Shown: positions 6,551 to 10,918 of the stretch, in pieces | Position numbering within the stretch: the stretch's first letter is position 1 | How the letters are laid out: each line of letters starts with the position of its first letter | Origin: an uncultured Acidaminococcus sp. | GTDB lineage: Bacteria; Bacillota; Negativicutes; Acidaminococcales; Acidaminococcaceae | Assembly: GCA_902796945.1 (NCBI GenBank) | Contig: CADBQR010000100.1 | Location: 1 to 41,432, forward strand | Length of the DNA: 41,432 bases | Reading direction: 5' to 3' | Program-made: the position numbers and the translations under genes | Notes under the pieces: model-generated | Told to the model about the DNA's origin: nothing | Seen by the model: only the letters and a program-made list of their open reading frames with translations | Database searches by the model: none

Positions 6551-6564
6551 GAAAGGAAGAAAAA

Positions 6565-7386
6565 GTGAAAAGACAATTGATTTTGGCAGGACGCCCCGTA
6601 GCCGATAAAATTAAAGAAAATCTCCGCAGCGTGTTTTCAGAAACCAATGCGACGCTGGCCACCTTCCTCATTGGCGATGATGCGCCGGCCCATGTATATA
6701 AGCGGAGCCTGCTGAAATGTGCAGCCGGGCTGGGAGTCCATACCAGGGACGTGGAACTCCCCGCCCATACGACACAGGCAGAAGCTGAAGCCGCTTTGCA
6801 GGCTCTCAGTGATGATCCGGCCATAACGGGAATCCTTCCCCTTATGCCGGTTCCCCGGCATATCAACCAAATGCAGCTGATGAGCCGGCTGGACCCGCAA
6901 AAGGATATGGACTGCCTGCATCCGTTAAATAGCGGTGAGTTCTATCTGGGCATCAGCCCCTGGGGACCCTGTACCCCCCGGGCCTGTATGACGTTGCTTG
7001 ATTATTACCACATTCCTCTTGTTGGACGGCGTGTGGTCATGGTTGGCTACGGCGATGTTGTCGGCCGTCCGCTGACGCTGATGCTGGTGGACCGCCATGC
7101 AACGGTGACCGTGTGCCGATCCAAAACGAAGAACCTGTCCAATATCCTGAGCCAGGCGGATATCATCCTCAGTGCGGTAGGGAAACCAAACCTTATAACG
7201 GAAGATATGGTCCGCGAAAACTGTGTCCTTGTTGATATCGGATTGTCTTCATTGGACGGCAAGATGGTGGGGGATATCTCCGATGGCGCCAAACTGAAAA
7301 AGGCGGCTGCCTATACGCCGGTCCCCGGTGGGGTAGGTGTCCTCAGCAACCTGATGGTCATGATGACCCTGACGCGGAATCTCTGA
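6565..7386 (+). CDS. FolD-like methylene-tetrahydrofolate dehydrogenase/cyclohydrolase paralogue lacking catalytic residues
   Basis: 273 residues from a GTG start with GAAAGGAAG four bases upstream. The whole FolD fold is present: LAGRPVADKI at the N-terminus, PQKDMDCLHPLNSG (substrate Asp116), GPCTPRACMTLL, the Rossmann segment VGYGDVVGRP, ISAVGKP-like LSAVGKP, and TPVPGGVG at the C-terminus. Aligned without gaps to E. coli FolD through the active-site helix, Tyr45 is kept but the catalytic lysine (YVASK in E. coli) is Leu49, and the QLPLP glutamine is Leu93. GRSxxVG is also altered. Canonical FolD uses Tyr/Lys/Gln/Asp for dehydrogenase and cyclohydrolase activity, so cyclohydrolase activity is probably lost. 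It may be a dehydrogenase-only form, a folate-binding or regulatory protein, or an enzyme on another substrate. Confidence 0.85.
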   Translation: MKRQLILAGRPVADKIKENLRSVFSETNATLATFLIGDDAPAHVYKRSLLKCAAGLGVHTRDVELPAHTTQAEAEAALQALSDDPAITGILPLMPVPRHINQMQLMSRLDPQKDMDCLHPLNSGEFYLGISPWGPCTPRACMTLLDYYHIPLVGRRVVMVGYGDVVGRPLTLMLVDRHATVTVCRSKTKNLSNILSQADIILSAVGKPNLITEDMVRENCVLVDIGLSSLDGKMVGDISDGAKLKKAAAYTPVPGGVGVLSNLMVMMTLTRNL

Positions 7387-7440: not shown

Positions 7441-7836
7441 TCAGTTGTTATATTTGGCGGCCAGCTTGCTCATGAATTTTTCTTTTTTGACCAGGAACCG
7501 TTCATGTGTCCCCTGACCGATGATGCCATGTTCATCGGAGGCTGTCAGCTTGAACGTGAGCTTACGGCCGTCCACTCCGACCAGGACCGCTTTGGCTGTA
7601 ACGGTTTTACCAACTGCCGTGGCCGCATCGTGGGACATATTCATGCTGATGCCGACACTGGTTGTTTCTTCATCAAGGCAAGGGTCTACCAGCGTGCAGG
7701 CGGCTTTTTCCATCAGGGCAATCAGGGCCGGGGTTGCATATACATCAAGGGAGCCGCTTCCCATTGCCTTGGCTGTGTTCGTATGGAGAACCATTTCCGT
7801 AGCTTCCGCTGCCGCACCAATACGAAATTCTTTCAT
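7441..7836 (-). CDS. Hotdog thioesterase of the fluoroacetyl-CoA thioesterase (FlK) type
   Basis: 131 residues with a single hotdog domain. The FlK catalytic residues Thr42, Glu50 and His76 have exact counterparts here in spacing: Thr35 and Glu43 in YATPALIALMEKAA, and His69 in MSHDAATAVG. Family members hydrolyse small acyl-CoA thioesters; most are not true fluoroacetyl-CoA enzymes, so the natural substrate is open. It is divergent from an acyl-CoA ligase across a 197-base gap, suggesting opposing roles in activating and releasing acyl groups. The ATG at 7836 has a modest upstream site (AAGAAGTG). Confidence 0.85.
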   Translation of the reverse strand: MKEFRIGAAAEATEMVLHTNTAKAMGSGSLDVYATPALIALMEKAACTLVDPCLDEETTSVGISMNMSHDAATAVGKTVTAKAVLVGVDGRKLTFKLTASDEHGIIGQGTHERFLVKKEKFMSKLAAKYNN

Positions 7837-10486: not shown

Positions 10487-10519
10487 AGAGTGAAGGGAAA
10501 AAAGGACGGAGGGATCAAC

Positions 10520-10918
10520 ATGGCCACTGAATTTTTGGAACTTAAAAAGCTCACTATCTACGTCGGGGAAGATTTCTTCTGTGGTGACAGGCCTTTTTAC
10601 AAGGTCATGCTGGATGTTGCGGCCAAGTATAAATTGGCGGGCTGTACTGTATTTCGCGGCCTGCAGGGATACGGCAGCCGGGTCCGCGGCCGGGAAAGGC
10701 GAATGCTCATCAGCGTGTCCGATGCCATTAATCTTCCGGTCATTATTACTGCTATCGATACGGCCGATCAGATTGAACGGGTGATGCCTTTCCTTGAAAA
10801 AAACCTGACCCATGGTGTTGCTACCGTTGATGATGTCAAGATGTTGGCAACGGAGTTCGTGAAAAACCGTTTCAACAAGGCCGTGGAGGAAAGAGAAAAT
10901 CCTGCCTTACGGGAGTAA
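10520..10918 (+). CDS. DUF190 family (PII-like) protein
   Basis: 132 residues; the ATG at 10520 is preceded by GGAGGG with a seven-base gap. The DUF190 pattern is clear: LTIYVGEDFFCGDRPFYKVML, GCTVFRGLQGYGSRV and the SVSDAINLPVIITAIDTADQI stretch. Family members have a ferredoxin-like fold similar to PII signalling proteins and are often encoded near the fluoride exporter FluC (CrcB), but no fluC is visible here. It has its own promoter and terminator, so it is a single-gene unit. A small ligand-sensing role is plausible; none is shown. Confidence 0.88.
   Translation: MATEFLELKKLTIYVGEDFFCGDRPFYKVMLDVAAKYKLAGCTVFRGLQGYGSRVRGRERRMLISVSDAINLPVIITAIDTADQIERVMPFLEKNLTHGVATVDDVKMLATEFVKNRFNKAVEERENPALRE

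Follow-up and report, generated by a model that had tools for sequence, protein, structure and literature searches.

The folD locus and its product

The window, that is, the whole stretch of 41,432 nucleotides analyzed here, from an uncultured gut bacterium of the genus Acidaminococcus, contains an uninterrupted ORF with a GTG start (6565–7386, + strand) coding for a protein of 273 amino acids. Profile searches recovered near-full-length matches to both domains of the FolD family, PF00763 (E-value 1.1e-23; 84.1 bits against a cut-off of 32.8) and PF02882 (5.4e-48; 162.8 bits against 27), and an AlphaFold2 model (mean pLDDT 95) found FolD/MTHFD proteins as all of its best structural matches (Z 33–37, with Z 37.1 for Campylobacter jejuni FolD, 3p2o). 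By both its Pfam domains and its fold the protein is thus a member of the FolD family, with the Rossmann domain retained as the preliminary description of this DNA had claimed. Its best model among the NCBIfam equivalogs for bifunctional FolD is PRK14172, where it scores 233.7 bits against a cut-off of 392. The nearest named relative is A. intestini DSM 21505 (86% protein identity), followed by other Acidaminococcus. The features of the gene are as follows:

6553..6559, + strand: AAGGAAG, resembling a ribosome-binding site, just upstream of the GTG start (sequence reading)
6565..7386, + strand: folD-like gene, putative monofunctional 5,10-methylene-THF dehydrogenase, 273 aa (PF00763 + PF02882, AlphaFold2 model)
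6697..6699, + strand: codon of Tyr45 (E. coli Y50), kept (alignments)
6709..6711, + strand: codon of Leu49, in the position of the catalytic Lys (E. coli K54) (alignments)
6841..6843, + strand: codon of Leu93, in the position of the Gln of QLPLP (E. coli Q98) (alignments)
6910..6912, + strand: codon of Asp116 (E. coli D121), kept, followed directly by the codon of Cys117 in place of Gly122 (alignments)
7048..7053, + strand: codons of Tyr162-Gly163, in place of the Arg-Ser of GRSNVVGKP, dinucleotide-binding site (family alignment)
7117..7119, + strand: codon of Arg185, in place of the His of CHS, dinucleotide-binding site (family alignment)

The gene adjoining folD (7441–7836, − strand) codes for an FlK-type protein of the fluoroacetyl-CoA-specific thioesterase family (PF22636, 8.4e-37), and a DUF190 gene lies further along the window at 10490–10918; DUF190 genes often adjoin fluoride exporters.

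Active-site residues

Using as reference the E. coli FolD, whose sequence is identical to that of PDB 1b0a (same fold over 271 residues, Z 34.4), we could align the active-site helix without gaps. The columns of E. coli Y50, K54, Q98, and D121 correspond to Tyr45, Leu49, Leu93, and Asp116 of the window protein, exactly the positions named in the preliminary description. The Lys of the YxxxK motif and the Gln of the QLPLP motif, which mark a bifunctional FolD, are accordingly both leucine, and are so genus-wide, while Acidaminococcus retains the Tyr, the Asp, and the TPVPGGVG loop; loss of the Lys and Gln with retention of the Tyr and Asp is the residue pattern of the monofunctional type. E. 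coli FolD and human MTHFD1 have the Tyr, Asp, and Rossmann domain in common with the window protein but differ from it in possessing the Lys and Gln and both activities.

A search for another lysine that might be aligned into the pocket found none. The ungapped helix rules out a shifted alignment, and residues 40–55 form a single helix in the AlphaFold2 model, in which the sole lysines near Leu49 are K46 and K51. The first lacks conservation across the family. K51 occupies the column of E. coli K56 and, lying two residues from L49, would, going by helix geometry, face away from the pocket.

Distribution of the Lys-less FolD and selection acting on it

The main-type FolD of all nine Acidaminococcus genomes, that of the complete A. 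fermentans chromosome among them, has Leu in both the K54 and the Q98 column. The family, sampled here by 59 genomes from 18 genera (Phascolarctobacterium and Succiniclasticum are two of these), lacks the lysine in every FolD read; outside the genus, column 54 is mostly L, and column 98 is mostly M, otherwise L or T. This spread through genus and family rules out sequencing error or chance as the source of the two leucines. Class-wide, FolD proteins split into a low-scoring group without the K and a high-scoring group in which K is paired with Q (or E). Among 132 distinct FolD rows the states of columns 54/98 are chiefly L/M (43), K/Q (37), L/L (17), M/M (9), M/L (9), and A/F (5), and in every Lys-less row but one (Q/Q) the lysine and glutamine were lost jointly. 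Column 50 is Tyr in each of the 131 rows without a gap there (one row is gapped), and column 121 is Asp in 131 of the 132, with Glu in the other.

The double loss is the mark of a clade spanning Acidaminococcales, Veillonella, and other Negativicutes families; the conservation of Leu49 and Leu93, proposed earlier as a check, is seen as Leu/Leu throughout the genus and as K/Q loss throughout the clade. In a quick tree of 90 FolD rows with many weak forks, built with columns 54 and 98 removed, 37 rows of Lys-less Negativicutes with the L/M type group in a single clade (SH-aLRT 91), and 10 rows of the A/F type in another (SH-aLRT 98); there are six changes between K and not-K over the 90 rows, and the stem branch leading to Acidaminococcus is long (0.81). 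The folD frame is open in all nine Acidaminococcus genomes, and dN/dS in pairs without fully saturated dS is 0.04–0.08, indicative of purifying selection; the nine genomes and the low dN/dS together rule out a pseudogene. Scattered FolD proteins of other phyla (L188, L193, L205, L209, L185, L198) have I or L at K54 with a varied Q98 column; judged by these residues, they are possibly further independent losses of the cyclohydrolase.

Association with the FchA/FTCD_C family

If the cyclohydrolase of FolD has been lost, another enzyme must take that step. As a marker we used PF04961 (FTCD_C), to which both FchA and formimino-THF cyclodeaminase belong. It is present in 90 of the 90 class genomes whose only FolD scores in the Lys-less range (a label based on score, with residue-by-residue reading covering part of them), versus 31 of the 103 with a canonical-scoring FolD (four of the 31 being weak matches). 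The Fisher test gives p ~1e-28, a figure that counts genomes, not independent events, and still includes their kinship; hence, we use the co-occurrence as a one-way rule: wherever a Lys-less FolD was seen in this class, an FchA-family protein accompanied it. Of 20 named genomes from elsewhere, Lys-bearing and Lys-less, 19 have PF04961, and the family is non-discriminating there. Outside the class, Lys-less folD genes of A/F or I/F type adjoin fchA and fhs in several cases; the A/F-type gene of Sporomusa-like and Clostridia genomes has fchA as a neighbor and mostly fhs too. The other genera of the family have folD beside fhs, which is not so in Acidaminococcus.

The window's own genome (G000; 2.17 Mb, 85% complete) has a single PF00763 match and no second canonical FolD, nor did the other eight genomes of the genus yield a Lys-bearing copy; FolD and FTCD_C are each represented once on the complete A. 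fermentans chromosome. The preliminary description had suggested looking for a second FolD or for Fhs and FchA, and it is the latter pair that is present: the sole FchA-like gene found in G000 codes for an FTCD_C protein (C41:37316-37858, E-value 3.9e-67) and adjoins fhs (C41:37966-39627). Their cluster also encodes a formiminotransferase, histidine ammonia-lyase, urocanase, an imidazolonepropionase-like amidohydrolase, and a transporter, a neighborhood that weakens the identification of the FTCD_C protein as a plain FchA. It scores 188.7 bits with the NCBIfam FchA model NF045657 (cut-off 275) and, given its histidine-degradation neighbors, may be mainly a formimino-THF cyclodeaminase. In the other family genera examined the FTCD_C gene has no hut genes within ~6 kb, and FchA is therefore its likely role there.

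The Acidaminococcus FTCD_C protein is 73% identical to that of a Veillonella genome (G226) and ~37–44% identical to those of its own family; likewise, the genes that the hut cluster (G000:C41, L210, 567-11407) has in common with this Veillonella are 64–86% identical. These identities suggest a lateral transfer in which the hut-fhs-FTCD_C cluster probably took the place, in Acidaminococcus, of the fhs and fchA native to the family.

Two Acidaminococcus genomes (G002 and G005; L010, L036) have an extra, distant FolD with A or I at column 54, F at 98, and an RPFPP motif, located near the fhs-FTCD_C cluster and belonging to the type whose gene stands beside fchA in Clostridia and Sporomusa-like genomes. 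One other Acidaminococcus genome codes for a second, divergent FTCD_C protein (G006:C1:331851-332351, L227), which has a formiminotransferase and hut-like genes of its own.

Comparison with known single-activity enzymes

Work by Aluri et al. in 2016 is said to have described the C. perfringens FolD as a monofunctional dehydrogenase that works with FchA. The title of that study, listed among the references of PMC7219735 and PMC11559097, describes the enzymes accordingly. The sequence of this protein, used as query, gave a 98% identical match with Gln at 54, Leu at 98, and the Asp kept. Like the window protein, it combines the FolD fold with changes in both the Lys and Gln columns and an intact Asp, and its partners FchA and Fhs parallel the FchA-family protein and Fhs of G000. 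The lineages differ in what replaced the lysine, Gln in C. perfringens as against Leu or Met in the Negativicutes clade, and in the cofactor motif, which is an unchanged GRSNIVGKP in C. perfringens and altered in Acidaminococcus. P. productus has a monofunctional dehydrogenase of the acetogen type, and NAD-dependence is reported for some such enzymes. The acetogen dehydrogenases (A. woodii, P. productus) similarly divide the labor between a FolD-type dehydrogenase and FchA, but, unlike the window protein, are part of the Wood-Ljungdahl pathway. In A. woodii the genes form an fhs-fchA-folD cluster (PMC10472528). The yeast NAD-dependent methylene-THF dehydrogenase (1edz) also has a single activity and the same fold (Z 27.8), but at 22% identity belongs to a separate eukaryotic branch.

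A genus-specific change in the dinucleotide-binding site

A further change, absent from the preliminary description, sets Acidaminococcus apart from its family. The Arg-Ser of GRSNVVGKP, found in 43 of 43 other family members, is Tyr-Gly in all nine Acidaminococcus proteins, and the His of CHS, likewise present in 43 of 43, is Arg in the same nine. We take both stretches to contact the NADP phosphate, as in human MTHFD1, and the substitutions may point to an altered NAD(P) preference. It is conceivable, though we hold it doubtful, that the dehydrogenase-only FolD of Acidaminococcus also switched its cofactor preference (e.g., to NAD+) after the hut cluster had replaced fhs and fchA, serving redox balance in amino-acid fermentation.

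Functional interpretation and alternatives

We consider it highly probable, on the residue and gene-content evidence, that the window protein is a monofunctional 5,10-methylene-THF dehydrogenase without cyclohydrolase activity, that step falling to an FchA-family protein. We infer that the cyclohydrolase is absent and the dehydrogenase present: FolD would interconvert 5,10-methylene-THF and 5,10-methenyl-THF, the separate FchA/FTCD_C-family protein would carry out the step between methenyl-THF and 10-formyl-THF, and Fhs would connect 10-formyl-THF with formate. In G000 the FTCD_C protein of the hut-fhs cluster would then have a double role, as cyclodeaminase in histidine breakdown and as cyclohydrolase. 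In E. coli FolD, K54N makes the cyclohydrolase undetectable with ~19% of the dehydrogenase left, and Q98H leaves ~1% of the former and ~8% of the latter (PMC5688156). As these mutants lose much of their dehydrogenase, the Lys-less clade must have compensated elsewhere.

The same mutants tell against a FolD that is still bifunctional and cyclohydrolyzes its substrate by other means, for instance through other residues that activate water. The identity of the cyclohydrolase base is unsettled, with modeling of MTHFD2 having found neither Lys88 nor Gln132 fit for the part (PMC9173628), and this leaves some room for such a mechanism; however, both columns have turned hydrophobic, the helix has no other conserved Lys facing the pocket, and an FchA-family protein occurs in every Lys-less class genome searched, making retained bifunctionality very unlikely. 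The genus-only RS to YG and H to R changes and the long Acidaminococcus stem might instead be read as marks of a protein that is no longer a folate dehydrogenase, being a sensor or an enzyme for another C1 carrier. Against this stand the preserved Tyr, Asp, and TPVPGGVG loop, the strong purifying selection, and the fact that this is the sole FolD found in most genomes of the genus, the complete chromosome among them, with Fhs and FTCD_C retained; we give this reading hardly any credence. Least probable, to the point of being negligible, is a decaying remnant of a bifunctional FolD whose work another enzyme has taken over: beyond the two substitutions nothing speaks for it, while against it speak a frame that is open in all nine genomes, a dN/dS below 0.1, the confident structural model, and the lack of a Lys-bearing second FolD in those genomes.

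The preliminary description was right that an intact, well-conserved fold points away from decay. Of the functions it had offered for the rebuilt active site, dehydrogenase-only action is best supported, by the clade, the dN/dS, the joint loss, the retained Tyr and Asp, the presence of Fhs with an FchA-family protein, and the failure to find a second FolD in the genome, and neither another C1 donor nor a folate sensor finds support. Nor is the activity new in kind, as it had proposed: a monofunctional FolD acting with FchA is already known, as is the effect of K54N and Q98H (PMC5688156), and the probably dehydrogenase-only FolD of Acidaminococcus is of this known kind.

Implications

The best-scoring models for these proteins say "bifunctional FolD," a name that, to judge from the K54/Q98 pair, is probably wrong for a large group of Negativicutes. 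The two columns, taken with the presence of FchA, provide a simple rule for annotating and modeling one-carbon metabolism. Since binding of the natural FolD inhibitor carolacton depends on K54 (PMC5688156), Lys-less FolD proteins are predicted to be insensitive to it. Finally, the altered cofactor site peculiar to Acidaminococcus opens a testable question about the genus.
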